A stretch of DNA of 64,000 nucleotides, taken from the NCBI GenBank assembly GCA_964036295.1, contig OZ038467.1, forward strand, positions 4,395,001 to 4,459,000, written 5' to 3'. Each line of letters opens with the position of its first letter. Within the stretch, counting starts at the first letter, position 1. A program made the position numbers and the translations under genes. Origin of the DNA: Plumapathes pennacea (taxonomy: Eukaryota; Cnidaria; Anthozoa; Antipatharia; Myriopathidae). The notes under the pieces were generated by a model that did no database searches, was not told where the DNA came from, and worked only from the letters and a program-made list of their open reading frames with translations. Shown here piece after piece: positions 3,901 through 56,373 of this stretch.

Positions 3901-4695
3901 CAAGTTACTGGCGGACAGTCTGGGCGGAGATGGTGTGACACTCATGGTAAGTCACGCAGAGAGGCTGTCAATTTATTTTTTTCTTGCGTATCTGAATCAA
4001 AATTTTCGGCCCATTTTCATTAAAGCTGCTTTAGTACAGACTCGTTTAGTTTAGCGGATAAATACAGTCACGTGACGTGTTATTATTATGACTGCAATAG
4101 TCGTGACTTATCATCGTCAACGTCATCATCGTCAACGTCATCATCAGCATCATTGTAATTAACATCGTCATCATCATCATCCTCATCGTCATGGTCATCA
4201 ACATCGTAGTCATCATACCATCATCGTCATGACCTTTGTCGTCGTCGTCTCTTACCATACCAAATATCTCGTCGAGAGACGATAACTGCAACGACGCTAA
4301 GGCACGCTAGCAAGGCTGTGTTTTTGTTTCGTAATCGGAACAGCCGAAATAAACCGAACAGTTCCTCATTCTGGGGGACGTTGAACTCCACATTGTTTTG
4401 AATACCTAGTTCACCCTCTGACATTGCGAGCAACTCATGATACATCTCTATACAAGTGAGCTTCAAACCAAAATATTTTACCGACCATCACCGTTTTGCC
4501 TAGTCCGGGATGGGCGCAAGCGAACGCGCCGCTATTCGAAGCATGGGTCGAACTAACGAGCGCTATCTTTTCACTTGCTGGTCATTACAGATCGCTTGTA
4601 TCTCCCCCTCCTCATACGTGGTGTCCGACACCCTGAACACGTTGAGATACGCCCACCGAGCCAAGAGGATCAAGAACAAACCAGTTGTACGCATG
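967..4695 (+). CDS. KIF12: KIF12 motor-domain exons: switch II to end of motor
   Basis: Four exons (967-1036, 2594-2677, 3828-3946, 4591-4695) encode the end of the kinesin motor. The switch II motif [11 protein letters not shown] is split by the first intron after the first base of the Gly codon. Next come the alpha-4 region ([16 protein letters not shown]), the loop-12/alpha-5 microtubule-binding stretch ([13 protein letters not shown]) and the last strand and helix ([20 protein letters not shown]). These are hallmark kinesin signatures with no frame break. The preceding intron is cut by the window start; no convincing upstream motor exon is visible in bases 1-966. Confidence 0.9.
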
Positions 4696-5609
4696 GTGAG
4701 TGGTCACGTGGTACCGTCCCACCTCTGTAACCTCGCACTGCCGTCTGTCTTGTACAGCGTTTCGTTTCGTTCTTTGTTCCCGTGCTATTGTTTATGTTAT
4801 AGAAGTACCCTCCTGCCTCTCATTGTGTGTTTGTTTGTTTGTTTGTTTGTCTGACATGATCTGGACATGATCTGTGTGTCTGTAGTCGGCGTTGTCCGTG
4901 TGTTTGTCTTTGTCAATCTGAACATCGTCTGTCCGCAGTTTTTTGTGGGTGTGGATACATCGTCTTCTTGATTCTTCTACCGTGTGCCTGGTTGTCTGCT
5001 TGAGGTTGTTGTCCGTGTGTTTGTGTGTCTGTGGTCGTTGTCTGTTTTGCTAGTTTTTGTGTCCATGTTTTTGTGAAACTTTCATGTGCTTGGTGTCAAT
5101 GTGTTTGAGAACCTTTGTGTGCTTTTGTGAGTGTTTCGTGGATAACTTCTCATTTTCTATTTTCGTGTGAGGTGATGTAATGTTTGCCAGTGCACCCTCT
5201 CTGTGTTGCCATTGCGTACTCCGATATGAAACTGCAGGATCCGTTCGTACAGTGAAAAATGTGTATTCAACTGAACACTCAAGTCTTCAAATATTGGTTT
5301 TATTACCTGCAGGATCCGAAGGAAAAACTCTTGTTGAGTCTCAAGCGAGAAATCAAGTTACTTCGGACTGAGAACAGCTACTTCAGACAACAGGTGATAG
5401 TGCATGTGTAGTGTAAGACTTTTCTTTATAGCCTATTTTTTACCCCATAATTGTAAGCATCCTGATTGGCTGGAATGAGTCTTGTGCACATGTTAAGTGG
5501 CTTGACTAGTCGCGCAATACGCGGCGATCAAAGGGCAGACATTGTCTCATCTTGGACAGTATTTCCTCAGTGTGTGCTTCCGTAGTCCTCGGAGGTGTAG
5601 CTGAGGACA

Positions 5610-11349: not shown

Positions 11350-13253
11350 CATTTAGAGCCGTTATATAGAAAATCTTATAGAAATTGAATCAAGCAGACA
11401 GATCAGTCAAATTAATAACTGGAATGATTATTGGAGCGCAACAGACGAAAGGAAATACTCCACCAATGCTGGTATAGACCTTTGGCTTTAAAACGTAAAA
11501 GCATTGATCAAACGGACTCTCAAAAACAACCCGCAAGCTTTGCAAGCTGCAGTGGCAAGAAACTGGCGTGAAAGTTTGCGTTCAACTAATGTCAACATGA
11601 GTGGTCAAAACATAACGTGCGTTGGCGTACGGGTCCGTTTTGTCCGGGACTCAAAATCCAACCTTCAGTGAATGTCAGCGTAGCACGTCGCTTCCTTTTC
11701 TTTCTATGTAGGGACAAGTTAGTGATAAATAGCTATTCTCTGCCTTCAGACTATGGCCGGATGTTTCTCTCCAAGGGTATATATTTTGACAGTTAGTTGG
11801 CCGACATATTCCCCGTATCATATTGATATCGGGCCAGTGTTAATTCTTTCAATCCTTAGTTTACAATTTTATAATTTTTGGACAAAATATGTGAAGCTTT
11901 CGTTTGAGCGGTAATACCTCTTGTTTTTGTCCATGTGCTAAGAAGTGAGACATTTCTCAGTTCTGAAACACACTGCCAGGACTCGAAGGGTTAGAGATTT
12001 TACTCGATGGGGTTAAAATGTCCCCCTCTCTCCTTCCCTCTGGATGAAATCTGAGTAAAGCTACAAGAACGGGCGTTTCGCGCCACCGGGTATATGCTGA
12101 CGAGTGTGCAGCAATTAAATTGACTGTCAAACCTTAACTTATGGGAGGTCGCCTTCCCAGCAATTGTACCCCAGCTTCATAGCTGTAACACAAGGACCAA
12201 AACAAATATATGATAAATTACAAAGTAGCTTGGTTCCTACTGTTGGTCTCTGTTATCATGGTTAACAAGGCATTTTTCATTCGAGATCATTATTAGTGAC
12301 GGAACTTCTGAACTATCGAGTGAAACCCAATTGAACGCTGTCAATGAGTACATTTTAATGGCGATGTTCATGTTGTTTTGGAGCAAAGTTTGTGTGTTTG
12401 CAATTTAATTTGGAAAGTATATTAAACTAAACTAAAATGCATGATCAAGTGCAGCTGTTACTAACTGGATCAAAACCTTGCACATCCCGAGCCATCATAG
12501 AGAAGGTTAAGGTGGATTATAACACTCCTTTCTGAACTATTATTTTCGGGTATGCCGAAATGGCCGCTAGAGCTAATTAACGCGCGCAAAGCACTGTAGT
12601 TGAAAAGGGCTCTTCTAGGAAAGAGTTGTCGAGTTACTGTAGCACACGATCAGAAAAGCTGTGTCTGCTGAGAAATTCCCTGTATATAGATGCTTCGTCC
12701 GTCTCATACAGACGGATAAAATACTTTAAAATATTCAATACAGTTATATAATACAGACAAAATTTCAAAAACGGAATTGAGTGCATTTGACTAAAACGAG
12801 ACCATGTATTTTTGGATCAAATTTCAGAATATAAAGTATAAATACTGGTAGATGGCTTAATTAATTTTACACTCCATTAAGTTTGTTTTCGAAGCACTAA
12901 TTGACCTTTTAAATGTTCAAATTGCACGTCAAACAAACAATTTTATAAATAAATTCACCCGACACACAGCAGATCAGTATTTGTTACATCCCGTAAAACA
13001 AGTGGCCGTGAAAGTAAACCTATCCATAGAGTTTTCTGTCCACATAAGTTTAGAACAGTTTTAATCGACGGCTTAGTACGTCTGTGTACGGAACGTTAAG
13101 TTGGATTCGGGCTGTACCCTCAACAGCTGAATGACCGCTGTAAAAGTTTAATGAGATAATTTGACAGTTGATGGTCAAAACATACAGTGCGTTTAACATT
13201 CTGATGATGCATAGGGGAGGGACTTTCTTGTCACTCTGTTTCCTCCAAGGCTT
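11350..13253. other. Intergenic / KIF12 3' UTR, no further gene seen
   Basis: AT-rich sequence after the kinesin stop. I see no open frame with domain or signal-peptide character. Several ATTAAA/AATAAA hexamers occur (for example near 12113 and 12945), but I cannot pick the real polyadenylation site. Confidence 0.5.
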
Positions 13254-13260
13254 TATAATT
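13254..13260 (+). promoter_or_regulatory. Candidate TATA box of precursor gene 1
   Basis: TATAATT lies 96 bp upstream of the ATG at 13350. The paralogous precursor gene has a TATAAAA 93 bp upstream of its ATG, so the matching spacing supports both. Confidence 0.45.
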
Positions 13261-13349: not shown

Positions 13350-14169
13350 ATGAATTCTAAGTTTGCGTTCATCTTCATCGCGTTTATCATGCTTGGATCA
13401 ATTAGTTTAGGAGAAGCTCTATACGGAGCAGATGTAATTCCTGCTGGAAGGAAAAGAGACGTAAGTAGGGGCGTGGGGCTGGATACGATATTTTTACTAA
13501 AAACATTTATCAGGAATGTATTTCTAAAACGGAATGGGGGATTAGATTGAGGAAGCTGACAGAGCTAAATCTCATAGGGTTAGACTTATGTTGAGGGCTA
13601 GGTTTATTGTCAGACATCTGGCCCGGTTGTCCAAAGCACGATTACGTTAACCCAGTATTGACCAAATTCTTCCTCTCGTGCTTTTGGCCAACAAAAGGCA
13701 AAGATTTTGGTCAAAGACTAATTAAAACATTTTTTCTACCTCAAGAAATAGCAATGAAGTGGTTTTAGGAGCAAGAACTTTCTTTTTTCAGGCTTGGAAA
13801 TGACAACGATGTTTCAACTTAATCCAAGATTAGCCTAATCTTGCTAAGAACACCGGGGCCCTGAAACTCCTAATCACAACCGTAAATCAGCCCTACAAGA
13901 CTTCTGTTATGTCGGCTTCTTTGGTCTCATTCCTTATTCCGCGTTTCCCGTTTTAGTAACATTTGGTTTAATTGGTATAACGTTCTCTTATCAGTTAAAA
14001 AGAACAGGTACGATTTCTCCCAACTCTGAATTATTTATTGATTGTTTACCGTATGACATTACTTATTTTTCAGAGTGCAGATATTGCAGTCAAACGAGCT
14101 GTACGCAACCTGTGTGAAATCGCTCGAACGCTGGACTGTAAACGGGAGCTGGAAGATGAAGATTTCTAG
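13350..14169 (+). CDS. Secreted neuropeptide-like precursor 1 (two exons)
   Basis: Exons 13350-13460 and 14074-14169 are joined in phase 0 by a GT-AG intron and give 68 residues. Visible order: a hydrophobic signal peptide (about residues 1-23, ending SLGEA); a short segment LYGADVIPA followed by Gly-Arg-Lys-Arg, the classic amidation plus dibasic cleavage signal; a spacer DSADIAV-KR; then AVRNLCEIARTLDC, flanked by KR on both sides with cysteines seven residues apart; and an acidic tail ELEDEDF. This is the layout of a neuropeptide or peptide-hormone preproprotein processed by prohormone convertase and an amidating enzyme. I recognise no named family. Exon 2 aligns with exon 2 of the gene at 24705. 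A paralogous GPCR starts 1.7 kb downstream on the same strand. A MITE sits in the intron. Alternative: a short secreted Cys peptide without hormone function. Confidence 0.75.
13619..13863. mobile_element. MITE with CCGGTTGT-type inverted ends
   Basis: The left end GGCCCGGTTGTCCAAAGC is mirrored by the right end CTAAGAACACCGGGGCC, and both ends carry GATTA/TAATC internal motifs. Related copies lie at 8000-8212 and 22083-22329. It is inserted in the intron of precursor gene 1 and encodes no protein. Confidence 0.65.
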
Positions 14170-14226
14170 AGAGGACAAACCAGCTCCGAAGGCAGAGAAA
14201 GTCCTTTAGCACTGCAATAATGAGTC

Positions 14227-14232
14227 AATAAA
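14227..14232 (+). terminator. Polyadenylation signal of precursor gene 1
   Basis: AATAAA 57 bp after the stop codon, at a suitable distance for a short 3' UTR. Confidence 0.55.
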
Positions 14233-14479
14233 TGCTGTTATACTTACCCAACATTTTGTCCTGTTTTTATTGGCTACCTCCTTTGATCAAAATTTGATCA
14301 AAATTTAATAATTTCATGAAAATTTTATAATTCACTTAGTTAAACATGCTGCTGAAACGTTTCAAAATAAGGGTGAATAAATGACAGAATGACAAGGTTA
14401 ATGTAAAACTGAAGATCCAAAGTCAGGACAAAAACACGAAGAGATCAGGGAATACGAGACGTATCGCAGCTGTATTTCA

Positions 14480-14636
14480 CTTTCTCTCCGAGTGATTTAT
14501 TCCTTCAGTTTCTCACCAAAATTATGTCATACATTATGGAGAACTTGGCATTTGAAAGCTTGCTTACATGAAACCTGAGTGGACTATCAGTTCTCAGCAG
14601 AATCTGCATTTTGACCTTGGGAGTGAAATGGTTAAT
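14480..14636. mobile_element. Partial TTAA-ended short repeat
   Basis: The sequence ending in TTGGGAGTGAAATGGTTAA is a diverged relative of the complete short repeats at 53992-54198 and 59060-59266 (shared phrase CTTCAGTTTCTCACC and shared right end). The left end is degraded. Confidence 0.5.
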
Positions 14637-15234
14637 TGGCGATAGCTAGAGCAGCACAGCATCGCATTCAACACCGGACAAAGTACATAACAGAATCCAT
14701 GTCAAACTATAGAATTAGAAAACCGCATTCAGACAATCCCGGACAAAATGTGTTGAAACATGCTTTAAATGTCGTACTCTTGTCAAAACTAACATGCTGT
14801 GAGTCATCCAGTTCCAAAGAAAACTCCTTTAAACACCCCCCCTCCCCGTATCAATGTTGTAGCTTGAATTTGGAAGAGTTCCGGTAAGACGGAAAACGGA
14901 AAACCGTTCCTAAATAATTAATTTATCAACATTGAATGGGGGGAGGAGAGAATGTGTTCAACACTTTTGTCCGGGATTGTAGCTGAAATGCGGGCATGGA
15001 GAAGACTCGTACAAAACGAACAGAATATGCATATGTTGTGGCCACAGCTGCTCACTTCGTCAGTGTTATATTTAAATTTTGCATTTTATCTAAAACAAAA
15101 CAAACAAAGGAATGAGGCAATTGCGTATATAGACCTGAAGGAAATATATTTCAAAGTGAAAAGGTGAAACTCAAAATGCATAGTGTTCGAACTCCAAGGC
15201 AAGTTATCACTTCGATCGGGGGTGGGGGGAGGTG

Positions 15235-15331
15235 GTAACAGTTGTCACATGATTTCGAGTGAAATAAATTAGCACGAGTAAATTTTTCAAAGACCACAAA
15301 ATTGCACTCGAAATCATGCGACAACTGTTAC
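15235..15331. repeat. Inverted repeat with 27-bp arms
   Basis: GTAACAGTTGTCACATGATT... at the left is the inverse of ...AATCATGCGACAACTGTTAC at the right, with one mismatch near the arm centre and about 43 bp between arms. It lies 0.5 kb upstream of GPCR 1. Probably a foldback MITE remnant. Confidence 0.65.
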
Positions 15332-15865
15332 GTGCGCTCAGCCAATCAGAATGCAGAAATTATCGTATGCATGTTTCTGCGTCATATTTACGTAGGGTCG
15401 CCACCTTCGGGTATCTCCGGTCCGAAAGTCCCGGTGTTGGGTCACGTACCTCGTTGTTGCAAAAGGACAACTGGGCATTTCGAACTTTTTTCGAGACGGA
15501 GTAAATATCGGATTTTCTGTATACCCTATAATCAGTTCGCTATACGTGTAGATGTGAGTTTCAGGCGACAAGCAATATCAAATCGTGACAATATTTGACG
15601 GGTTGTTAACACTTCCGTGTCATATTTCGTCGCATATTGGGCTGTATCGCTAACGGCATCATATGGCGTAGACACCCCTCACCTGGAGTTGTTGTTTATC
15701 AGCTGACGTGTTCGGAAGGGGAACAACAAGGAAACGTCCTGTTCGACGCAAAGCGAGGCACAGAGGAAGCAACAGAAAAGATACAAAAGAAACTCGATAA
15801 TCTGAACACTAAACGTAACGTCTGGAAACGAAGCCTTGACATACAAAGCAGTACAAGACAGGAAA

Positions 15866-16975
15866 ATGACAACATCATACAGCACCAACGGACCTTCTTC
15901 CACCAATACATCCAACATAGAAATCCTACTTGAAGCAGAGGCGTCTAAAATTTTCCGCACCGTTTTGTTCTCGCTGTCCACTTTGGCGTCTCTGTTCGGG
16001 AATACTGTGATGTGTAAGGCGGCCTGCACTTTCCCATCAAGAAAACCGCTATCTTACCATCTCGTGACCAACTTGGCCGTGGCAGAGCTTATCAGCACCC
16101 TCTGCTTCCCATTCCCATTCGTGTATGCTTATGTTCGGTACTGGCCATTCGGGGAGTTTGCTTGCAAAGTTGCCATTCCTCTACAAGTCCTATCCATGTT
16201 TGTGGTGACGAACACGTTGGCAGCCATTGCTGTTTACCGCTTCTTGATTGTCTTCCAACCGTCTAGAAGAATTCTTACCGACTACAAGATCATGATACTG
16301 TTGCTGTGTCTGCTGTGGGTGTACGCACTGGTTACGATCATGCCTCTCTTTATTTTCTATAAACTGCTTGATTCTGATAAGGATGAGAAGATTTTCTGCA
16401 ATGCAGAGTTCGAAGGCGATGACTTACGCAACAAGGAAGCAACAGAAATGCAAAAGTACGACATAGTCCGCTTCATTCTGAACTATGGTTTGCCGTATGT
16501 CATCATGATGGCGTCGTACGGAGCAGTGGCTTTGAAGGTGAAGAAACACATGAGTCGCTCCAGGACCGTGGAATCAGCAGAAATGTCAAACTTTGGAAAA
16601 AGCACCGAGCAAACTCACGACGAAGAAGGAGGAAGAGAAGGAGAGGCGATCCAACCTCAAGACCAGCAGGTCACCAACAAATCGGAGAACGGAACAAGAC
16701 CTAAAAGAATCACGGAAATGGAAACCGATCTGCTGAAAATGATCTATGTCGTGATCCTCGTGTACGTTGTGTGCTATTTTCCGTACCAGTTGCATTTTCT
16801 GTTCACCATTTTTCTTGGGTATAACCGCTATCCTAATATCGGTAGATACAGTAAGTACATCGGGGCTTATTCGTATCTTTTGCTGAGTTTCCCGAGCGCT
16901 CTCCACCCTCTGTGCTACGGCACTATGAGTAAGTTCTATGCGAGGGCTTTCTCCAAGTTAGTGTTGTGTAAGTGA
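15866..16975 (+). CDS. Class A peptide-type GPCR 1 (intronless)
   Basis: Seven-transmembrane receptor of 369 residues in a single exon. I take ATG 15866 (A at -3) rather than the in-frame TTG at 15836. Visible marks: an extracellular N-terminus with an N-T-S glycosylation site; Asn1.50 in TM1 (GNTV, N46); TM2 NLAVAE; TM3 Cys100, which can pair with Cys178 in loop 2; VYR at 123-125; a long acidic third intracellular loop (about 228-285); TM6 VVCYFPYQ; TM7 SALHPLCY. Unusually, position 2.50 is Glu, 3.49 is Val, 6.48 is Tyr and 7.49 is His. The general form is that of neuropeptide receptors. It is clearly paralogous to the gene at 29179, and a candidate ligand precursor lies 1.7 kb upstream. The ligand is not known. 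Confidence 0.88.
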   Translation: MTTSYSTNGPSSTNTSNIEILLEAEASKIFRTVLFSLSTLASLFGNTVMCKAACTFPSRKPLSYHLVTNLAVAELISTLCFPFPFVYAYVRYWPFGEFACKVAIPLQVLSMFVVTNTLAAIAVYRFLIVFQPSRRILTDYKIMILLLCLLWVYALVTIMPLFIFYKLLDSDKDEKIFCNAEFEGDDLRNKEATEMQKYDIVRFILNYGLPYVIMMASYGAVALKVKKHMSRSRTVESAEMSNFGKSTEQTHDEEGGREGEAIQPQDQQVTNKSENGTRPKRITEMETDLLKMIYVVILVYVVCYFPYQLHFLFTIFLGYNRYPNIGRYSKYIGAYSYLLLSFPSALHPLCYGTMSKFYARAFSKLVLCK

Positions 16976-17072
16976 ACCGGAATTAAGTGATTTGATTTAA
17001 CGAGGGCGGTCTAATTTTTAGCACTGGTACACTACATTAGACTGAATAGAAATTTAGTCGTTAACAGCCACG

Positions 17073-19874
17073 CCCGCACTGTAAATTCAAGAGAGCTATT
17101 TCGACCCCAAAAATGGGGCCAAAACGGTGAGTAAAATATAGAACCTATTTTTGGGGCTATTTTGGCCCACTTGGCTGGGGCTGTTCCAACCCCTAATTTT
17201 AGGGTCATTTTGGCCCTGTCGGTGTTCTAAAATAGCCCCTTGTGGGTGCCATTTTGGAAAATGAAGGGGTCAAAATGGATTTTGGGGGGGCTGAATTGAT
17301 TTGGAACAGGGCTGAAATGGCCCACAAACTAGAACTATTCTGGCCCCATGTTTGTTGAAACAGCCCCAGTGGGATTTTTTTGGCTATAAATCAGGGCCAA
17401 AATGATGAGGAAAATAAAGCACCAATTTTGGAGGCTGTTTCAACCCTCATGAACGAGAGCCACTTTAGCCTACTATTTGGAAGCCAGAATGATCCCAGCT
17501 GGGGAACTAAAAAAGCCTATTGAGGATGATGGTTTATGTGATATAGGGCCCATTTGCGGGCTTTTACAAGGCTGGAACAAACATAAAATGGCCTTCATGA
17601 AATAATACACAAATTGGAAAAAGATTCAGCCATCTTGAACTCACAAGAAGAACCACAAACTTACAATGCACAAATTTAATAGCAACAACCAACTTATAAA
17701 ACAGTTTCATGATACTGCCCTATGAATTACACTACTGGTACCTGCTGTTGGGCTGTCATGTATTGTTAGCGCACCAAAGCAGTAAACAATCATACAACCT
17801 TTAACAGTACAAACATACACTGTACTTTCAAATAATCAAGTTCAAACATTGTTTCTGAAAATAAGAATACGAGTTACTATCTAATCCTACAAATTGTACT
17901 ACAAATTGCTAAGTTGTCCTTTTTAGGAGAGTAATACAATACAAAACATGTTGCCTTCAAACAAAGTCATTTCATACTGTACAGCTCCTCCAGAGCTCGA
18001 CGCTTGATATTATTTGTGATTTATTCAACTGCAGTTTCTCTGCAAGGAAGAAAGGAAAATGTTAGTCTGTTTTGTTGTCCTGAGTTTCTTGAACCAAGTA
18101 CAAACAAATAACCTGGTGGCTAAACAAAATTTTTGAAAAATGTACAATACACTTGATAATATTTCACTTTCAGAGTAATTAAGAAATGCATATAAAATGG
18201 AAAAATCTTGCTTAGCCAAGATTCATCTCTATCTTATTAGTGTATTGCAAAATCTTGCTAAGATCTAATATGATCTTGGCAAGATCCTGTCAAGATCTTA
18301 CTAAGATAAGACAAGATTTTCAACCTGGGATACAGTACCAAGACTAAAGAGTCTCAACCCTGCACAGACTTTCTTCAAAAGCACATGAAAGAAAGGTAAT
18401 GAACGTGTGAACATACAGTATGCTGAAATGTTGGAAAGCTTATTTTAGGACTTGAACACTGGTAATGACTACATTGCATATGCCAGCCAACACTATATTT
18501 CCACTTTACAGCACATACTAACCAAGGTCTAAACCCTTAGATTATCTTGAAAAATATTCCTCAAGTTAAGCAGTAGGATTATGGTTAGAGTTAGGTTTAG
18601 AGCTAGATTTAGGCCTGATTACCATGTGCTAGAAAGTGAAAATTCGATTTTGTCATATGCACTGTGTGGTGATACCCTGTGTACAAGCAAAACTTACAAT
18701 ATCTGATGTGAAATTCCAACATGCAATCATCTCAAATACAGAACAGTGCATGTGAACAATGTGAAAAATAGCATCAAAACTTATAGTACTGTACTCACCG
18801 ATTCCATCTCTATCCTTCCATATATTATGCTTCAGTCTTTCGACCATACATTCAAAATGTACGGAAAGGGACAGGTACTGTACGCAGCCTTCCACAAATA
18901 TGTCTAACTTTGAGTTGAAGGAAATGACTGTAAACACTGATCACTTCGTCCTGCCAGAGGAGTGTTGGCCTTTGTAGATGGACAAATAACAAATCCCGAT
19001 CACGTTTATCCTCCGAAGTCGGGGCTGCAGAACGCTGACGTTGTAATTGACGGCAGACTGACCTGACCGTAACTCCAACAGCCATCGAACAACGAGTTCG
19101 ACGTATATCCACACAGCTGCATTCCTATTCTTTCTCAAAAAATGAACGTTCAACGTTCCACGATACTGCGCCACGCCACAGGAAAAAACCGTTTGAACTG
19201 AATGGCGCCCGAGCTACTACGCATGCCCATTACGCTGAACCGCACACCGACAGTCGTCGCAAACTCGTTCCCAGGGCCCTCAGCGTGAGGAAACTCTCAA
19301 ACGACAAAGGAAGCCCTCCCTTCTCAGATTTTCTCTGGGTCATTCAAGTTTTGCTTTTTGATGCAGTAGTGGATTGCGGAATTCAAAAATTTGTTTTCAA
19401 AATTTTCGATCTGTAACTCGAAGCGGTGATTCCCAGCCCAAGCGGTGGGGCCTGGGCGAGTGTTTGATGTTATAAGAGTTAGAGTGGGAATGTGTATGAC
19501 ACAATTTCAGCCGGACATCATTGATAGTTATAGAACGGGTTCAAGCCCACGTGCATTTTGAAATACAGATTGATTATGCTGTTGTACCATTAAGACACTC
19601 AGTGGGCCGAAATGGCACTCATACCAAAGCTGTTTTGACCAACCCTTATCAATGGTACTGATATAGCCCCATGGGCCAAATCAGTTCAATATGGGGTCAA
19701 TTCGTATTTTGATGGGGCTATTTTGGATTTTACAAGGGCCAATTTGGATTTTAGTGGGGCCATTTTAACCCCAAATTTCAAATTGGCCCTTTGTGGTCCA
19801 AAATAGCCCCTTCATAAAGTGGGGCTATTTTGCATTTTGGGGCTAAAACAGCTCTTTCAAATTTACAGTGCGGG
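17073..19874. mobile_element. 2.8 kb non-autonomous DNA transposon with GGGGC-rich terminal repeats
   Basis: The element begins CCCGCACTGTAAATT and ends with the exact inverse AATTTACAGTGCGGG. Inside both ends lie about 300 bp of imperfect inverted sequence made of short phrases such as GGGGCTATTTTG and its complement. The core (about 17600-19600) has only short frames on the minus strand with no transposase I can recognise. The CACTG end resembles CACTA or Chapaev-type transposons, but no clear target duplication is visible, so the superfamily is left open. Confidence 0.7.
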
Positions 19875-22082
19875 AATCATACCAAGTATATACTACTCCG
19901 CTGAATTCTCTAGTCTGAAGCCGTTTTTAATTAATATATACCCTATATTGCTTACATGTAGAGATTGTATTAGTCGTGCGATTTTTGTTAGCTTGATCCA
20001 TTTTGCACCGATATGATAAATCGACTCTGGCTACTGCAGACTGACGGGTTGTAACTGCCCATGATATGTATACTCCTCTGTTTCTGCGGGAAACTACATT
20101 TACTGAGCTCAAGCGGCCTGGGTAGGAGGTTCTTTGACGACAGCTGCCGTATTTCTCAGGCACTGAACATGATCATCGAGCATACTCGAGAGCTTAATTC
20201 ATTTTTTGAGTGCTCATACCTTGACTTTTCAATTTTAATTTTAATTCTGGCATTATATATATAAAATGTATAACTGCATATACAGTATAATATCAATTCC
20301 ATATTCAAATAATATTCTTACAAATCAAGAAGCAGAAAGCGAGGGCACAATGGATAGTAGATGGGCTCCTAATAGTAGTCATTGTCTTTAAATACATTAA
20401 TGTTGGCACGATTTGCATATACAGTAAAAACGGTTTCTAAATACACATAAAATATCAGTAAGAAAACAGAATTAGCCCAGGGAATAACTTTTTTCATGTG
20501 TCCACGACAACAGACTCAGACGTGATCTATATTAATTAAAATTGAGAATGGAGGAATAATGAATAAAACGTAGTTATAGCTGATGGATACCTGCACGAGC
20601 TGTTATTTTAAAATGTATATCCGTGTCAATAGTAATAATTTTTGCCATCCATTTTGCCATGAATTGTTTTCCCTTTTTAAATAGTATAAATGTCTAAATG
20701 CAAATTCGTTGCAGGTTCTGCGAATTTAATATTAAACAATGGAGAACGTGATATCCATTATTACTGAACGCTATATTTAAAGAATTTATTTTAAAAATTA
20801 TGTAGAGTGATATATAACACTTTTGTTTTAAACGGTTTGACATCTTAGTTAGAAAACCAACGATAATTGTCACCCGCAACGCACCTGCTAGTCATGCAGG
20901 GGCAGATTCAGTACGGAAAATCTGAGTATAGTTTGCAAATCTGTGAGCGCCCAAGACGCGAGTTTGTAGCGGGATCGGGAGGCCCTAAAACGCCAATTCT
21001 GAACTAAATTCCAAAAATCTGACAGGTTTTCATAAGCTGGTCTGGATCAGCCCCTGTAAATTCATTCACCGGCAGCAGCTGCTTGGACTCCCTTTAGACT
21101 GATTTCAGTTTCTCGAATACGCAACTCTGTCACAAACATTATGATTATTTCAAGAGCCCATCGGGTTATTCAATGCAACATCTGGCCCCGTTGTTCACAG
21201 CACAATTTGGCTAATCTTGGGTAAAGTCTCAACTTTGTTATCATTGTAAGCTTGAAAATGAGAACGGATTTCACTCACAAACCGATGTCTTGCTATATTA
21301 TTGTTTTCTAGACCAAACTTTTCATTTGTGCTTTGATCAAGACGCTGCACTTCGTTGGCTAAACAATTTGTTACCCGGGGCGAGCTAACTTATACTCCTT
21401 TAACTTATATTCCTTTGAAAAATTCAACCAACCGTTTACATGAGGCGAGACAACTCGAGAGGGCGAGTTGTCGCCTCGGCAGGGTAACCCTTTCTCATAT
21501 AAACACTTTCATTGGCTCGGGCAGTCGGGGGAAGGGACAACTCGGTCTACAGAAGCCTGTTCGCGCCGGCTTAAAAACAAAATTTGGCATAACCAGAAAC
21601 TACAAGAGTACAGAAATCAGAAATAGGACGATCTTCCTTCGGCCCGTCATCCGTGGGATTTACAAACCCAGTTTAAAAAATTCTTCCCGATCTCCAAACC
21701 AGCTTTGACCAGGTTTACCAGAAACAACCTTTTTTCATGTGAATGCTCGGTAAAGTTGTCTCCGGAGGAGGGGTTGTCTCGGGTACCCGGGACAACTTTT
21801 CTCTATACAGAGCCTGAGTTATCGCAATCGAGCTTCGAAACACCGTGCTGGCATACATGTCATTATATATGAATGTTATACATAGCGTAGATATATATAT
21901 AACTATTGAACATCTTGTATAAACCACGCTATTTTCAATTATAGGTGCTCGGGTCTTGCCTTTAATTCATTCATCCTCACAGGAACCGTCTGACAGAGAG
22001 AAAATGATCATTCTCCGAGATAACACCTGGAGCTAAAACTATTCACATTCTAATCAGTCTCCTCAGTTCTAATTTCTCTCGC

Positions 22083-22329
22083 CAGGTTCCGGTTGTTCAA
22101 AGTTCGATTAAGTTTACGCCGGATTACCAAATTCTTACTCTCCACATCGTGGTCAACAAGCTTCAGAGTTTTGATCATATACTATAACAAAAAGGTATTT
22201 TCCTTAGCTCAAACGACATTAATTAAGTTGTTTTGTGAACGAAACTTCGTCCTTTTCAGGTTTAAAATGACAGCAAATTTTAATTTAATCCAGGATTAAC
22301 TTAATCGTGCTTTGAACAACCGGGCCCCG
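22083..22329. mobile_element. MITE with CCGGTTGTTCAAAG ends
   Basis: Left end TTCCGGTTGTTCAAAG; right end CTTTGAACAACCGGGCCC. About 245 bp long, non-coding and with better-preserved ends than its relatives at 8000 and 13619. Confidence 0.7.
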
Positions 22330-23180
22330 CTAGTTCACATCAATGAAACGATATGTACATGGACCTGTGTTACTAGTGCCATTCTGGGCAAACCTCGACA
22401 TAGTAGTTCCTCATGCACAGGTAGTTACAAGACATAAAACTATACTTTTATCCTTTGTCGGACAATTCTTCATTGCTATAGTACCTAAGAAAAAAATTGG
22501 TACAAAGTTTTTAAACCTTAACCCATCGTGGGTGGATTAAGATATTGTTTCTGGCTCTGGTCCGAACGGCCGCAGGTGATCAATTCTCGTGAATTTGCGG
22601 GCAAATTGACGGACTACATACATTGTTAGAGAAACACATTAAGGGTAAACCTGGTAAATGAGTGGGGGGGAAAGGCTCCAATCGATCATTATTAACAAAA
22701 TAATCATTTCAAATCTGCATTTTATACTGCGTATTTCAGTTAAGTACTGACAGAGTAAATGCCTCAAGCGTAGCCGGATATTGTGTTCAGTCTAAAACCA
22801 TAAGCTACCGGTGTGGACAAAGTCATGCATTCAATAAGCGAACATAAAATAACCTGAAATTACGAAAACACATAAAACATAAATAAAATAATTAAAATGA
22901 CTCAAACTGCTCTCGAAAGTTAAAGAAGCTCGTGAATTGAAAGATGATAAAGAAAACCTGTCTTAGTTTAGGGTGATAAAACTCAATTTATGTCACCTCA
23001 TCACCTAATTCTTAGTCAGATGATATTAACATGAGGCGATATACGAATGAACTATATACTTTTAATCTGCATGATCAGCAGGTGCCTTTCCGGGTTAAAG
23101 TTGTTTCAGTCTTAACACTAGCCGCATGTCAACCATTTGGAGTTATTTGGAATAAAAACTTTATACTCAGACACTTCCTA

Positions 23181-23213
23181 AGAGAATATGACTAAGTTAG
23201 TCATATTCTCTTG
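23181..23213. repeat. Perfect 16-bp-arm palindrome
   Basis: AAGAGAATATGACTAA, one G, then its exact inverse complement. It could extrude a hairpin; no gene is adjacent. Confidence 0.85.
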
Positions 23214-23882
23214 ACTGAAATCAATTTTTTTTGTACAAACTAACTAGAAAATTTGGCTCCTGTGATGTAAGGGAATATGGAATGGGCCTCATTATTCGTT
23301 CAGTCACAGTCGCCAATGGCCAGCCGGGTTATTTCGAATTGAAAATAACTTTTCAAACGAGTTTTTAACATATATAAATATCTGACTTCCATAAGGATCT
23401 GAAGATGTACCATCATGAAATTTAGCGTCTTGTAACCAATACGCGCCCTGCCTTACGTAAAGAAATGCCGTGTCGTTTTCAAATAAGAGAAAGTTATATA
23501 TCAGCCAATGACAGTAATGGAGAAGAAAACATTCACGTACTTGAGTCAAGAGTGAGCTTTCATGCTATACACGGCCGATTGGAGAGAAATCGTACAACAT
23601 GGAACTGTTATACTATCTGTATACAAGAACCTGGGTAAACGGACTTGCACAGTCGGTCCAATTCAATCCGAGCGGACTGCAAAACTTGGGTACGGACTCT
23701 TGCAGTGGGCGCACTAAAAGAATTCAAAAGTCGCATAAACTAGGAACAAGCTATCTGTGTTTATTGCTATACAGTCTCGCCTCTTATTACAAAAATAGGA
23801 AGAATAAGGGCAATGTTTCCACTAGGTGCCCCCTCTTCGTCTTTTAGATATGAAAACTAAGAAATTAACGCCCCCGGCGCCA

Positions 23883-23908
23883 TTTTTTTTTTTTTTTTTT
23901 TTTTTTTT
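23883..23908. repeat. Poly-T tract
   Basis: An uninterrupted run of about 26 T residues. Similar tracts occur at 25087-25120 and 26307-26332, with a poly-A tract at 30659-30683. Confidence 0.9.
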
Positions 23909-24611
23909 ACAGAAGGTTTTTATCACGGTGTCACCACTGTAGTTTTGAAGATCAATCACACAAACCACCGGAAAGAGCAAAGAACTGAGGCTAGCAAGTG
24001 AAGCATTTTTCAGACCAAGAAAATAAAGTGGCATCTTATTATTATGAAGGTTATAATTTTGCGTGATATGAATTTGTTTTGCGGATCAGAGGAAAAGGGC
24101 GTGGAAAGGCTTCATTAATCAATCTTTTTACAAGTACATAATAAAGATATATACATATCAAATGTCAAAACTGGGAAATGACTCCTCAGGATGAATTATA
24201 GAAAAATTCATGATACTGACGTGAATAAGTAGAATAGGGAAGATAGACAACAGCTGATAAAATAATGTACAGGTTCAGTTACTAACACTAGAGTTCTCGG
24301 AATGTTAGTCTAACTGAATACACTGTATATCTCTCTTGTTTTAATTTTTAGTTACTTTTTATTCCAAAGTTTTAAGTGGGTATGGTTGTGGTAATCCTAC
24401 ACCATACATTTTTTTCCGTCAGACAGTTATAGGATGCATCTTCGCCGTTCTTTTTTACGATTACTGTGTTCCTGTGCAATTTTCTTTTGCCGACGGCTGG
24501 ACTCTCATGACAAAGGTGTTTATTCATAACGTAAAGTACTTGGCTTTATGTACATGGCGCACCTGACACGAAACGTTGTCGAGAAGTGGGTTTTGTTTGC
24601 CCGACAGAAGA

Positions 24612-24618
24612 TATAAAA
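24612..24618 (+). promoter_or_regulatory. TATA box of precursor gene 2
   Basis: TATAAAA lies 93 bp upstream of the chosen ATG, at nearly the same distance as in precursor gene 1. Confidence 0.6.
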
Positions 24619-24704
24619 CCGGACATAAAACCTCTATTTGTGGCAGAAGCTATCTGACGCCTCCTACGACAATCCGGATTAAAAAACTAAAGCTCTGGAA
24701 CAAC

Positions 24705-25087
24705 ATGGCTAGCCCTAAATTGGTGATGTTTCTTTTCGTCCTTCTCGCAATTGGATCATCTTTCTTGGTGGATACGAAAAGAGCAGCAAGATGTGTTGGG
24801 CCATGGTGCATGCGTGTTGGGAGAAAGAAAAATACACTAGTGAGTGCCTGGAATCATAACAGTTAGATTTATAACTTTTACAACTGTTTACTCTTTGACT
24901 CCCAGACTCAAAACACAGATCTCTCTCAGCCTTGTAAGAAGAATATGTCATGGGCTGTGATGTAGTGAGAAATTATCCAACTGATAGTTTAATCTAAGCA
25001 AGCTATCAAAAGCCAAGTTCTCCGTTTCGTATGATATATCTATCTACTAGGGTTAAATCTCAGATCCAGTTCTTGTCGCATTTTCTG

Positions 25088-25118
<31 letters not shown>

Positions 25119-25444
25119 TTCAGTTCTTTTCTTCTCTCTCTTTATTTATTTATTTACTTATTATTTATATTTTATTTATTTATTTTTGATGAGTTCTTGT
25201 TTACAAACGCGCAGATTGTGTGTAGAGCACGAGCATTAAGCTAAGAAAAAATAACGGTATTTTAGATGAATGTAGAAATAGTTTTATCAGACTTATTATA
25301 ACCCGAATGCATTAAACTTACGTAAATGTTTTGGTCATCCGGTCCCAGGGTTATGCAGCCAAACGTACCATACGCAACGTGTGTAAAACTGCTCGAATGC
25401 TGAACTGCAAAGTGGCAGACCTTCAGGATGGAAGCAAGGTCTAG
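24705..25444 (+). CDS. Secreted neuropeptide-like precursor 2 (two exons)
   Basis: Exons 24705-24839 and 25349-25444 are joined in phase 0 (GT-AG) and give 76 residues. The ATG at 24705 precedes a strong signal peptide (about 1-20); the longer frame starting upstream at 24576 has no ATG and would bury that signal. After a Lys-Arg comes AARCVGPWCMRV, then Gly-Arg-Lys-Lys (amidation plus dibasic cleavage). The core CVGPWCMRV is nine residues with cysteines at 1 and 6. Exon 2 gives a spacer ending KR, then TIRNVCKTARMLNC followed by K, and a polar tail. The RN-x-C-x2-AR-x-L-x-C pattern and the 96-nt exon length match precursor 1. GPCR 2 follows 3.7 kb downstream on the same strand. No named family is recognised; a neuropeptide function is inferred from layout. 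Confidence 0.77.
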
Positions 25445-25511
25445 GCAAAGCTCAAGGCAGAACACAAAACCCAAGACAGGCAGCGAATGTACATCAAATT
25501 TCCAACACACA

Positions 25512-25517
25512 AATAAA
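25512..25517 (+). terminator. Polyadenylation signal of precursor gene 2
   Basis: AATAAA 67 bp after the stop codon, similar in spacing to precursor gene 1. Confidence 0.55.
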
Positions 25518-25639
25518 GTTTACCATGACCAATAAATTCCCAGGTGTCTTGCACGCTCTCAAGTTTATATACAGTCTTTCATCTCAGTCATATACTTTGG
25601 GGCATAATAGTACATATTCCATCAAATCTATGATAACAG

Positions 25640-25798
25640 TTAAATCTGAAGATACGGTATATAAATAAATTTGACAGTACCGCCTTTTGATGGGTTGGAA
25701 ATCCCGACAAAGTGAAGCCCCATGCTGCGATACTCCATCTCCCCGTCAGGAGTAGCATTTGTCACCAAGAATCCTTGGGGATGGATTATTGAGGGCAT
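25640..25798 (-). pseudogene. Possible short coding fragment, 52 codons
   Basis: A minus-strand frame from ATG at 25798 to TAA at 25640 has locally raised GC content and protein-like composition (for example MEYRSMGLHFVGIS near the middle). No signal peptide, splice partner or known domain is recognised. It may be an exon remnant, part of a repeat, or chance. Confidence 0.25.
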
Positions 25799-26204
25799 AG
25801 ACTTCTAGACTTCAAAACGTACGCTGGAAAATACGTTTGATACTAATTTTACATTAGTATTTCCTTAGCCCTTCTAATCGTTTTCCACGAACTCGTCCTA
25901 TAAGTTACGCCGAAGTATTACTTAAAACCCTTGGACAGAATACGAATAAGTATACATAATACAGGGCGCGAATACGCGAATATCTATAATTAGTATATAC
26001 CACGCAAGTGAATAGTGCTTTTCGCGCGCTCTGATTGGCTGCTCAATCTCGGCATATCAAAGTACTATTCACCTCCCGGCGGCTTCCGGTAAAACAAAAT
26101 GGCGCGCGAGCCCAATTTTTGCTCACTTTTGTCGGAAATAAAATAGCTATTTGGGAGTTGGCTATTAAACTTGTCTGGTATATACTAAAACAATTATTCA
26201 CCTC

Positions 26205-26413
26205 AGTATCGGTGAATAGCGGTGGATATTTACCTCGCCGAAACGACTCGGTAAATATCCACGGTTATTCACCTCCACTTCGGCGAAGAATTGTTAAATA
26301 TTGCACTTTTTTTTTTTTTTTTTTTTTTTTTTGCAAAACGATGATCGATGCTGGATAAATACTTTGTGTAACCTTGTTATAGTGTATCCTCATACACTAT
26401 AATAAGGTTACAC
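26205..26413. repeat. Inverted-repeat cluster with hairpins
   Basis: Two structures lie side by side. At 26205-26290, the phrase GAATAGCGGTGGATATTTACC is partly mirrored by GGTAAATATCCACGGTTATTC. At 26369-26413, TGTAACCTTGTTATAGTGTA is mirrored, with one extra base, across a six-base loop. A T run separates them. Probably part of a foldback element starting near 25980. Confidence 0.6.
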
Positions 26414-27160
26414 CAAGTACTAATCGACTTGCTGGACCGAGAAAAAGAAGATGGCCGACAACAAAAGCCTTAGAATCAAAACAACCGAGGAAATATGGCG
26501 TTCTACTGTTCTACCCCAAGCCAGAGAAAGAAATTGGAGCTCACCAAACACTCACTACAAGTCAAGATTACAGGCATCCACGTGGATTCAATACGACGTA
26601 CGAAAACCAGACGACACAGGAACTAGAGCGATGTATCGGTAGGCACTGCTTACATTCTTTGTTATAAATTGTGTTTTGCTTACTATTTTCTTACTTTCTT
26701 CCCAATCTGAAAGTTGGGCTTCATACCAAACCTACATGTTTAGCAAAATTAGTCAATGTTCGACTTTTTAGAGTCATAAACCAAACATCGCTTAGAATGC
26801 CCTTTGTTTTCAGGAAATACACTTACTTTTTAGATAACTCAATTAGCATTTCAATGGCTCTCGATATCGCACAGATGATTGGTTAGTTTCCAGCTTTGGC
26901 TAGCAACGAGTTTATGCCCAAGGAAAAGGAAGGTGACAAGTAATCAAGGGTAAAAGCGCGGATATTGAATCCTGCATAAATTGGTCTGCGTGGCCCCACG
27001 CGGGAAATTTAAACTCGTGGTGGCGCAGCATTGACTTCTTCTATTCCTGTGCTACTCTAAAATACGTTTTGCTGTGTCTGAAACGGTGAACTCGGGAATC
27101 TATGAGGCGGATAAAGTCCCCCGGGGGAGAGGGGGGCCGGGACAAAGTCATGTTACCGCC

Positions 27161-27200
27161 GCCCGGTTGGCTCAGTTGGTTGAGTGCCAGTCTTTCGTGC
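27161..27200 (+). mobile_element. tRNA-derived SINE head, truncated
   Basis: GCCCGGTTGGCTCAGTTGG followed by TTGAGTGCC matches the 5' part of a tRNA with an A-box-like TGGCTCAGTTGG. No B box follows, so the copy is cut off about 40 bases in. Confidence 0.5.
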
Positions 27201-29178
27201 GTGCATGTTCTGCGTAGAATTCGGCGGCTCGCTTTCGTTCTGCTCTTAAGCGGCCGTCTCGTAGCACATTAAAGTTTTAGCGACTTCAAAAACGTTTCTC
27301 AATTTGACTGGTAAAATTATTTAGTATTCTTGCTTTTGTTATAGGTAAAGAATGAGTCAAGAATCAGTGGTGCAAAATGTATTGAATCGGGCAAAGCTTC
27401 AATTAATTTTCGTGGCTTTCAAAAAGTACTGTGTTTTTGACATCCTCATTCTTAAGCTCTTTTCCCTACGGGGGGGAGGGGTAGGGAAAAAAGCCTGGGA
27501 ACGAGGGTGTGTTTTTGAAACTGGAAGTTTCCTGTTACAACTGTTTTAACTTCACTTTAAAAGACAAAGGCAGGAAACGTTTCGCCGCAAGTTTTAAACA
27601 GCGTTTCGCGCCACTCACATGGCAACAAACAACTCATTTCGGCCCAAGGGCGCAGTACTCGGGGCTCCTTAACTAAAGTTAAACGCGGATCGAGTGCGCC
27701 AATTAAAATTTGTGTTACGCAGCGCCGCTATTAATCAAAATTGTACTTTTTACAAGGTTTGTGTTGCAGAAATGACCTGCCCATCCACGTAACAAAACTT
27801 ATAAAGCGCCTTTACCTTAGTTGCGAAGACAACAAACCGCGCACAAAACTTCACGCAAGTGAATATCGGCACATTAGTCTTCAGAGAAAGCGGGAAGTAG
27901 CGAGAAGGCGGAGGCAAACCAACAGCAGAGATCGAAAAAAGAAACCCCGGAAACTCATTTATGAGCGGGCACAGCAGTTTGCTTTTACAGTAACCTTCAA
28001 AGTCTTCTGAACACACATTGAATCAAGTATTGAGCACGTACGTATAATATTCTTAAATTTTCTCGCATAAGTTTATTAAGCTCTGAACCCGCAGGCGAGT
28101 AATTGAGTTAATATGCACTGATCTGATTGGCTTAAAATTGTAGTGTTATCAAATGTCCTGATTAATTACAGAAGTGTTGGTTTCCACGTGGAAGTGTCCA
28201 CTTTGCGAAATTAATTTTTCATCGTTCAGGATTTAGGATACATCACGGCGCATTTATAAGATGAACGTTCGCGGCTCGAACAAACTTAAATCAGTTTGTA
28301 AAGTTTGTGTGTGAGTCAATTTGTGCGCACTTGTAGCATTATATACACATATCTCCCTTTGACCATTTGGGCGATGAAACATCTGCAATTATCGTGTTTC
28401 CAGTAATTGTTTTTAACGCAAAGTTTAATAACATTTTGACGCAAAACGATAATTAAGCCATTTAATCTAAATTTAATAACACAAAATATGTTGTACTGTA
28501 AATAGAAGCACGTTTCTCCTGAGGTAGTAATTTAATAACTATAGCAAGATCCCTACCTCTGTCAAGCTGTGCATGGCCGTTAGTACCTAGTTTCTACTGT
28601 CCAGTACCGATGAACAGCAATGTGCGGAAAGTGCACAATATCAAAATTGAATCGAAAATTTATGGAACTTTCTTCTAGTTCAACATCTCAAGTGGCACCG
28701 GAAAACGGAAAAACTTTTCCACGAACTCTAATATTTATAGTTTGTCCAATATGCTGCAGGCGATGCATTATGATATTTCCACTGCAGTTTAGTACAATTT
28801 TATTTTATGCGTCCGTGCAGTGATTTAGCGTTAAGAGATTTATTACTTAGTTTTGTGTAAATATCATCATGATTATATTTTGCGGTAGTATTAAATTTTC
28901 ATATTATACACTGCTAGAACATTAGGTAATACACATTTAGTTTGCCGATGATTACTACATTTCGCGGCGCAGCATACAGCGTAATTAATAATAAAGGGAT
29001 ATAGTTCCGGCCCATGCAAGTAATAGGCAGAAACTCTACATGCAACTGCTGACATATAAGTCAGAAGAGAACAAGAACGAGGCGACCTAAGCCCAGAACA
29101 AATATTTAAACAAGAACAACCAAACGGCAAAACAGCGGGAAAAGAGAACCAACAAGAGTATTACTAGTATTGCGAACG

Positions 29179-30279
29179 ATGGCTGTTTCTTCACAATTTA
29201 TTAACGCTTCCATCTTCCTGAGCACCGAATCAACACCAACAAATAAATCCTCGGTTGACGGAACACAATTTGAAGAGCCGTTGGCGTCCAAAATTTTTTA
29301 CAGTGTCATTTTCGCGCTGACTCTCTTGGCATCTCTCGTCGGAAACACAGTCGTTTGTAAAGCAGTTTGCGAGTTTCCATCCAAGAAACCTTTGTCCTAC
29401 CATCTGGTGACCAACCTCGCCGTAGCAGAGATAATCGGAACTTTGTGCCTTCCATTTATGTTCTCTTACCAATACCTGGGTCACTGGCCTTTTGGTGAGG
29501 TCGCTTGCAAACTTGTCATACCCCTTCAAGTCATGTCCATGTTTGTAGTGACGAGCACTTTGGCAGCAATTGCAGTTTATCGCCTTGTCTTCATCGCTGT
29601 TCAGCCCTCGGTGAAAACCACCACATCTCGCACCGGGAAGATTGTTTTGCTGGGTCTACTGTGGGTGGTCGCGCTGGTGATTGCTTTGCCTCTCTTCGTG
29701 TTCCACAAAGAAGAACCAGGGGACGGAAAGGACATGTACTGTAATGTCGAATATGTACCAGTGTATGAAGTCATCAGATTTATTCTGAACTTCGGTGTAC
29801 CGTACCTGATGATGATGGTGTCATACGGTGCCGTCGCATTCAAAATAAAGAAACACATCAGCCAGAGAAGGAGACAAGAAGCAGCAACAGATTTGTTTGA
29901 ATTTGGGCCGAGTACTGAACAAGACAATGTAGAAAAGCCAATCCAACATCAAGACACTACCATCACTCTGGAAATAAAACGCCAAAAAAACTCTCGAATT
30001 ATCACAGACCTGGAGAACGACCTGCTGAAAATGATTTATGCCTTGATTATCATTTTTGTTGTGTGCTATCTGCCTTATCAGGTGCACTTTCTTTTCATAT
30101 TTTTGAACGGGTATGAAGAGTATCCTGAAGCCCAAAAGTACATGGGGCTCGTTAGCCGATATTTGTTTCTTCTGACGAGTTTCCCAAGCGCTCTGCACCC
30201 TCTGTGTTACGGTACAATGAGCACGTTTTACGCCCGGATCTTTGCCCGATTAGTGTTGTGTAGGCGTTCAAGGGTTTAG
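29179..30279 (+). CDS. Class A peptide-type GPCR 2 (intronless)
   Basis: Seven-transmembrane receptor, 366 residues, single exon. ATG 29179 is chosen over an upstream in-frame TTG. It is similar along its length to the receptor at 15866 (for example KPLSYHLVTNLAVAE and IPLQVxSMFVVT). Visible: N-glycosylation sites at N9 and N22; N56 in GNTV (1.50); Glu84 at 2.50; Cys110 and Cys188; V133-Y-R; a third intracellular loop of about 60 residues; CYLPYQ in TM6; SFPSALHPLCY in TM7. The departures from class A consensus match those of GPCR 1, so they predate the duplication. The candidate ligand precursor lies 3.7 kb upstream. Ligand and tissue are unknown. Confidence 0.88.
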   Translation: MAVSSQFINASIFLSTESTPTNKSSVDGTQFEEPLASKIFYSVIFALTLLASLVGNTVVCKAVCEFPSKKPLSYHLVTNLAVAEIIGTLCLPFMFSYQYLGHWPFGEVACKLVIPLQVMSMFVVTSTLAAIAVYRLVFIAVQPSVKTTTSRTGKIVLLGLLWVVALVIALPLFVFHKEEPGDGKDMYCNVEYVPVYEVIRFILNFGVPYLMMMVSYGAVAFKIKKHISQRRRQEAATDLFEFGPSTEQDNVEKPIQHQDTTITLEIKRQKNSRIITDLENDLLKMIYALIIIFVVCYLPYQVHFLFIFLNGYEEYPEAQKYMGLVSRYLFLLTSFPSALHPLCYGTMSTFYARIFARLVLCRRSRV

Positions 30280-56316: not shown

Positions 56317-56373
56317 GCAGGTCAATCACGTTTTCGTGAGTCGTAGCAGCCGCGTGACCACACGGGTATCGTG

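Follow-up and report, generated by a model that had tools for sequence, protein, structure and literature searches.

In the antipatharian Plumapathes pennacea, whose genome of 290 Mb is assembled in 24 contigs, we analysed a stretch of 64,000 nucleotides (contig OZ038467.1, here C6, positions 4395001-4459000; hereafter the window). On its plus strand, a short peptide precursor gene followed by the gene of a class A G protein-coupled receptor (GPCR) is found twice, in the order precursor 1 (P1), receptor 1 (R1), precursor 2 (P2) and receptor 2 (R2), and a sister cluster of the same two gene families lies within 3.37-3.55 Mb of C6. Precursors and receptors are each paralogous among themselves and concentrated at these two loci of C6; one precursor-receptor pair has been copied as a block, and its copies diverge in the predicted peptide and in the second and third extracellular loops (ECL2 and ECL3) of the receptor. 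With moderate confidence, we propose that this is an array of cassettes, each encoding the precursor of an amidated peptide together with its putative receptor, which would grow partly by joint copying of the two genes. The two precursor-then-GPCR modules had been proposed in a preliminary description of the window and were borne out by the gene structures and by matches to the 7tm_1 profile. Their features are, in window coordinates:

13253..13259, plus strand: TATA-like box of precursor 1 (TTATAAT), 97 bp upstream of the ATG; motif match only
13350..13460, plus strand: precursor 1 exon 1, with signal peptide, predicted amidated LYGADVIPA and GRKR site; plan as in the cluster precursors
13419..13445, plus strand: predicted mature peptide 1, LYGADVIPA-amide, deduced from the judged signal end and G-R-K-R; position of the variable cassette, a variability that rests on the paralogues
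14074..14169, plus strand: precursor 1 exon 2, with KR-flanked C-x7-C peptide and stop; 14 exon 2 matches in the genome
14227..14232, plus strand: AATAAA of precursor 1, 58 bp past the stop; motif only
15866..16975, plus strand: receptor 1, intronless class A GPCR of 369 aa; 7tm_1 E 4.6e-38
24612..24618, plus strand: TATA-like box of precursor 2, 93 bp upstream of the ATG; motif only
24705..24839, plus strand: precursor 2 exon 1, with signal peptide, KR, predicted amidated AARCVGPWCMRV and GRKK site
24783..24818, plus strand: predicted mature peptide 2, C-x4-C, amidated, deduced from KR before and GRKK after
25349..25444, plus strand: precursor 2 exon 2, with KR, C-x7-C peptide and stop
25512..25517, plus strand: AATAAA of precursor 2, 68 bp past the stop; motif only
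29179..30279, plus strand: receptor 2, intronless class A GPCR of 366 aa; 7tm_1 E 6.5e-39

TATA-like and AATAAA motifs are commonplace here, with 131 occurrences of TATAWAW and 50 of AATAAA on the plus strand of the window.

Both precursor genes consist of two exons separated by a phase-0 GT..AG intron, 613 bp long in P1 and 509 bp in P2. P1 was read as a signal peptide followed by LYGADVIPA-G-RKR, with an exon 2 coding for KR-AVRNLCEIARTLDC-KR, and P2 as a signal peptide with a KR-ended spacer, then AARCVGPWCMRV-G-RKK and an exon 2 coding for KR-TIRNVCKTARMLNC. A hydrophobic start and then a peptide with Gly and a dibasic G-R-K-K/R site, that is, the plan of a neuropeptide precursor, were thus found in both, signal peptides being judged by hydropathy rather than with a trained predictor, and cleavage sites by eye. 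So placed, the peptide stands directly after the signal in P1, in the cluster precursors and in those of a second branch on contig C8 (see below); in P2 the KR-ended spacer comes first. The exon 2 cores of P1 and P2 are identical at 11/19 residues and 45/57 bases, and as proteins they align with a score of 67, against at most 44 in 5000 shuffled pairs. Together with the phase-0 introns, this confirms the earlier claim that the precursors are paralogous in exon structure and exon 2. In exon 1 the pairwise match is limited to 7 residues inside the signal peptide. Silent differences in exon 2 are few: its pS of 0.276 is smaller than that of any of 329 overlapping windows taken from the receptors (minimum 0.37), although by Fisher test codon identity did not differ significantly between exon 2 and the receptors (p 0.07). 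Within the window, tblastn brought up neither another receptor of this family nor another precursor exon, apart from weak matches at chance level. Pattern-matching stretches were met in GTDB genome contigs (58) and in viral contigs (26), none of which was upheld by tblastn as a relative. Short inverted and direct repeats resembling miniature inverted-repeat transposable elements lie near the precursors, at 13614-13860, 21178-22326 and 17073-19874, some of them within the P1 intron.

R1 and R2 both match 7tm_1 over profile positions 1-260 of 260 and are 53% identical (195/371 aligned positions), in agreement with the paralogy along their length that had been described for them. The canonical motifs D2.50, DRY, CWxP and NPxxY vary within class A. 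As read by eye from alignments, they are altered in R1 and R2 alike, with E at 2.50, YRF/YRL for DRY, CYxP (CYFP in R1) for CWxP and HPLCY for NPxxY, and the class A assignment therefore rests on the 7tm_1 profile. Among profiles of solved structures the nearest matches were NPY2R (E 8.7e-25) and SSTR1 (E 2.3e-22), followed by dopamine and adrenergic receptors. Silent sites of the R1/R2 pair are near saturation (dS 1.69), and an AlphaFold model of R1 built from two sequences had a mean pLDDT of 37.5.

Across the genome, searches with P1 exon 2, with whole P2 and with a cluster exon 2 all led to the same two loci on C6. All 14 matches of the cluster exon 2 at E<=10 fell on C6, two in the window and 12 about 0.95 Mb off, and P1 exon 2 gave two further weak matches, on C8 (E 0.24) and on C11 (E 1.25). 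For R1, with 111 of 737 candidates scored, 14 matches were obtained at E<=1e-50, 13 of them on C6 (2 in the window, 11 at 3.40-3.54 Mb) and one on C2. A blind scan for a signal peptide, a G[KR][KR][KR] site and a splice donor, run over 264 kb (the 180-kb sister cluster, 20 kb of C2 and the 64-kb window), returned family members only: eight rows in the cluster, none on C2 and three in the window, two of which are one gene read from two start codons. Cluster copy C, having GREE as its site, is missed by design. No row was obtained from the cluster or from the window after reversal, and a 10-kb stretch of another GPCR cluster held no such precursor by the strict or by a looser scan. As a linkage control, an Antho-RFamide-type repeat precursor, as would be expected in a hexacoral, was located at C1:14.55 Mb, where the nearest GPCR among those listed lies about 332 kb off; the exact pattern QGLRWGK[KR] had no match in the genome.

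The sister cluster holds seven intact-looking precursors (A-G) and ten intact and two broken receptors, which brings the receptor genes of C6, R1 and R2 included, to 14. Five more precursors look broken or incomplete, namely I, J, H1 and H2, the last two with reading frames that do not match across the splice site, and a lone exon 2 at 3379207, to which no exon 1 could be assigned; two further exon-1-like remnants lie at 3380302 and 3385581. The signal peptides of the cluster are alike, of the MNYRLVIVLSLLL type, and a GRKK(G/S)L site is kept in six of the seven precursors, with GREE in C. Exon 2 is conserved across them; the amidated peptides predicted, by contrast, vary from copy to copy (TDALEPNVPV, TPPAKPEEYEPNAPV, TPPGTEDARI, SNHITRRIST, SNSGPSSYVLGTST, NGQTPLRLPV and NCQNPRKNHPI). 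The broken precursor I (C6:3430980-3431297) carries a CTSPHCLGF-G-RRK stretch, with C-x4-C as in window peptide 2. The array as a whole is best read as evolving by birth and death.

Joint copying was found directly in one case. The stretches 3438502-3444217 and 3453901-3459498 of C6 form one syntenic block of 86-88% identity, a value given for the stretches compared, beyond which the block may extend; one copy contains F and R3441, the other G and R3456, each with the DNA between its two genes. The preliminary description had proposed that precursor and receptor were duplicated as a unit, and this holds for F-R3441/G-R3456 of the sister cluster; for the window pairs it would follow only by extension. 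It had also taken the two window pairs to be products of one duplication. They are indeed paralogous, but the closest relative of R1 is not necessarily R2: its identity is 57% to R3400, R3412 and R3464 versus 55% to R2, and in the receptor tree, with the C2 receptor outside, R1 and R2 stand beside the cluster clades without a firm branching order. Likewise, P1 and P2 each show a smaller distance to those cluster precursors that were compared than to the other window precursor, and the forward match between the two window precursor regions is confined to exon 2. Because the tree leaves R1 and R2 without a firm position and R1 is as close to cluster receptors, we read the window pairs as two branches of the array; the comparison suggests two old, outlying branches, not surely each other's closest copies.

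Order and spacing of the genes were then considered over both loci. Eight of the 14 C6 receptors directly follow a precursor in plus-strand order, and since two receptors and two precursors among these pairs are broken, five intact pairs result; A, B and H sit in repeats without a receptor. The eight precursor-to-receptor gaps are shorter than the six receptor-to-precursor gaps (one-sided Mann-Whitney p 0.004, leaving out gaps between two precursors or two receptors and the 872-kb gap between the loci). Over the five intact pairs, precursor and receptor distances agree with a Mantel r of 0.95, reached by one of 120 orders, the identity. A precursor entered this set if it was intact and the gene after it was an intact receptor, which excluded A, B, D, E and all broken copies; with n=5, split between two loci, the agreement lends modest support to the pairing.

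Differences between copies are concentrated in the mature peptide. Between F and G, 11/30 of its aligned bases are mismatched, with a gap of 3 bases in addition, as compared with 16/429 over the flanks and the intron (p 9e-8); the signal peptide, the processing site and exon 2 taken together have 5/153. The peptide excess persists against the 13% rate of the whole block (p 9e-4). A mature-part excess was also seen in six of eight other cluster pairs (A/H1 p 6e-4, B/H1 6e-5, B/H2 2e-4, A/C 3e-5, B/C 6e-6, D/E 0.02), was not significant in A/B (0.06), and H1 and H2 are identical there. The nine precursor pairs compared are a subset of those possible and share members, and are thus not independent. 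On the receptor side, R3441 and R3456 differ in 16 of the 33 residues that make up ECL2 and ECL3, a grouping picked after the counts had been seen, and in 39 of the other 326 (p 2e-6); over the whole extracellular portion they differ at 20/73 residues, with the limits of the receptor topology set by eye. Within C6:3438502-3459498, the F/G precursor core and near flanks (16/429) are far less diverged than the rest of the block (12-14%), which hints at local gene conversion around these precursors; such conversion would explain both the young-looking F/G flanks and the few silent changes in exon 2 of P1 and P2.

The weak C8 match of P1 turned out to be an exon of the same gene plan. Used as a query, this exon gave 29 matches at E<=10, of which one is P1, one lies on C5 and the other 27 fall between 9.58 and 11.35 Mb of C8; these 27 reach E values up to 0.25 and one has an internal stop. 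Two complete C8 genes were read, with MKTAM(L/I)VFFSCLLLVADMMKGTEA, then FSAGVDATT or ISGMTDANR, GKR, and an exon 2 coding for FVRTARDLCRAARSLNC. Their exon 1 had 18 matches at E<=1, all on C8, and for the copies at 10001113 and 10001925 no exon 1 turned up in the scan. A comparison of the C6 and C8 exon profiles, each made from few sequences, returned 93% probability over 20 columns. In the C8 pair the peptide differs at 13/27 bases versus 44/758 in flanks and intron (p 4e-9), with 4/72 mismatches in the signal and 1/84 in exon 2. The C8 branch is larger than the C6 branch, and variable amidated peptides are predicted in the two genes read.

Elsewhere in the window, about 17 kb of tandem arrays occur at 31280-51339, downstream of receptor 2, with a unit of mostly about 334 bp (24.5, 14.9 and 7.5 copies at 90-95% match). 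Two CD36-family genes lie on the minus strand at 54775-56325 and 59843-61393 (E 1.2e-126 for the first, the one tested) and lie in a tandem duplication whose two copies are 99% identical over 2.9 kb. Kinesin motor domain matches were found in exons at 2371-4854, plus strand.

In the model proposed, each cassette would encode a secreted precursor of 60-76 aa, from which signal cleavage, a convertase cut at GRKK/GRKR and amidation at the glycine would yield two products: an amidated peptide, short and variable, and a conserved tail peptide with C-x7-C spacing. The class A GPCR just downstream is taken as the putative receptor of the neighbouring variable peptide. Blocks with both genes could duplicate together, the array growing in part in this way, and between copies the peptide and the extracellular loops would diverge most as the remainder of the precursor stays alike, so that a new private signalling pair might arise from one event. 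Processing, secretion and binding of each peptide by the neighbouring receptor are what we infer, and the physiological role is most likely a neuropeptide-type signalling.

Several observations weigh against this model. An immediately preceding precursor is missing for six of the 14 C6 receptors (R3400, R3464, R3477, R3516, R3523 and R3535), one of which, R3464, was copied without any precursor, and the tree does not support R1 and R2 as sisters. Among the GPCRs listed, none lies within about 93 kb of any C8 copy, weak evidence as the distances refer to the best-scored candidates listed. The third intracellular loop of R3441/R3456 differs as well (13/50), and the extracellular excess also appears where receptors lack a precursor, both members in R3523/R3535 (p 0.029) and at least one in R3456/R3464 (p 0.0002) and R3400/R3412 (p 0.013). 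The excess by itself is hence no proof that the loops track the neighbouring peptide, and weaker constraint on receptor loops may be the whole explanation. In the variable peptide, divergence is raised at silent sites too (pooled pN 0.41, pS 0.52, two pairs). A dN/dS above 1 in the mature peptide, tested in two pairs, was accordingly unsupported, and we make no claim of positive selection; the variable peptide appears better accounted for by an exchange of cassettes or by gene conversion that homogenised its surroundings. Furthermore, the F/G precursor flanks (16/429) are less diverged than the receptor silent sites (32/246; p 1.5e-5), so that precursor and receptor do not follow a common clock. 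Several predicted peptides also carry acidic residues, a feature given as ground for doubt in another peptide family in the part of PMC7523074 consulted. Finally, class A GPCR candidates are abundant in this genome (2409 in a loose first look, 147 scored), and one founding adjacency by chance would be easy.

This abundance, the receptors without precursors, the C8 precursors without a GPCR nearby among those listed and the extracellular excess in R3523/R3535 speak for a hitch-hiking, in which chance placed a peptide gene next to an orphan GPCR unrelated to it and both were duplicated together without any binding. Pervasive tandem duplication in corals points the same way: as stated in the consulted part of PMC10236652, almost a third of the predicted genes of two coral species are tandem-duplicated, with GPCRs making up 34 of 192 amplified groups. 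Indeed, block copying and distance agreement would both follow from hitch-hiking. On the other hand, the ECL2/ECL3 excess is highest by odds ratio in the co-duplicated pair with differing ligands, with the caution that the pooled regions vary between tests, and hitch-hiking does not require the precursor-receptor order to persist in pairs so old that the silent sites of their receptors approach saturation. All considered, we regard it as the main rival of the cassette model, though a somewhat unlikely one.

The ligand could also be the conserved C-x7-C peptide of exon 2, with the amidated part as a dispensable spacer. Exon 2 is the best conserved precursor part among precursors with paralogous receptors, and in P1 its peptide has KR on both sides. 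This idea lost ground because the cluster keeps the amidation site behind a changing peptide: with C (GREE) as the exception, G-R-K-K/R is retained in eight of the nine intact C6 copies. F and G moreover lack three residues before the first cysteine, where F also lacks KR, and we consider an exon 2 ligand improbable. A conserved signal with a variable mature part is the pattern of defence and venom peptide families. The precursors do show a conserved leader and a variable mature part, and their array grows through local duplication, as secreted peptides of this type with the GPCRs as bystanders would. Against such a function, the predicted mature peptides have 9-15 residues, are mostly cysteine-free and not uniformly cationic, and are followed by an amidation site. 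Pfam at E<=1 was empty for three of the four precursors tested, neither window precursor matching, and gave two sub-threshold matches for the fourth (E 0.15 and 0.21). A defence or venom role thus seems highly improbable.

If the cassette model is correct, it bears on an old problem in the evolution of signalling, namely that a new peptide and a matching receptor must change at once. With ligand and receptor copied as one block, the steps become testable through pairs of graded age, from the recent pair with about 13% block divergence to old pairs near silent-site saturation. The array is also a source of candidate ligands for some of the many orphan GPCRs of anthozoans. A bolder version, to which we give little credence, would make it the animal equivalent of the pheromone-receptor locus of fungi: a chromosomal site turning out joint copies of a peptide cassette and its GPCR, with the peptide replaced or hypermutated within a homogenised precursor and the loops following suit. 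It might thereby provide many private channels, differing between species or individuals, for gamete, larval or self/non-self recognition and not for ordinary neural transmission. Should it be true that channels vary between individuals, there would be a bearing on recognition in corals.

Among known systems, the closest in precursor plan are the single-copy preprohormones of hexacorals, Antho-RWamide, Antho-RNamide, Antho-RIamide and Antho-KAamide. In the parts of PMC7523074 consulted these are described with one amidated peptide right after the signal, an arrangement in which P1 and the cluster and C8 precursors may also be read, and, as here, with several paralogous genes per species. Their peptides are alike between paralogues (e.g. 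LRWamide), whereas those described here are strongly different, and the present cassettes add the C-x7-C exon and the adjoining GPCR. Neuropeptide GPCRs of Nematostella (Thiel et al. 2024, PMC11087051, consulted in part) are class A as well, with one cluster expanded in Hexacorallia, and three LRWamide peptides were measured there to have each a preferred receptor. Ligand-receptor gene linkage is not reported in the examined parts of these two papers, and the words synten- and linkage are absent from the main text of PMC11087051. The words "physically linked" occur in a GnRH receptor paper (PMC4232701). An open literature search surfaced no peptide-receptor gene linkage in Cnidaria, and the window peptide strings from P1 and P2 did not occur in open paper text.

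Outside Cnidaria, two systems invite comparison. The organisation found here resembles that of basidiomycete mating loci, where, as far as the sources consulted in part describe them, ligand and GPCR genes are linked and several specificities exist. In animals, the mouse ESP peptides and the vomeronasal receptors are secreted-peptide and GPCR families arranged in clusters, for which we know of no copying as ligand-receptor blocks. The pheromones of basidiomycete mating loci are lipidated and their receptors are of the Ste3 type. Instead of CaaX precursors and Ste3-type receptors, the array described here has predicted amidated secretory peptides and 7tm_1 animal class A receptors, and it is in its several linked copies of ligand and receptor genes that it would match the plan of the fungal mating locus, by analogy only.

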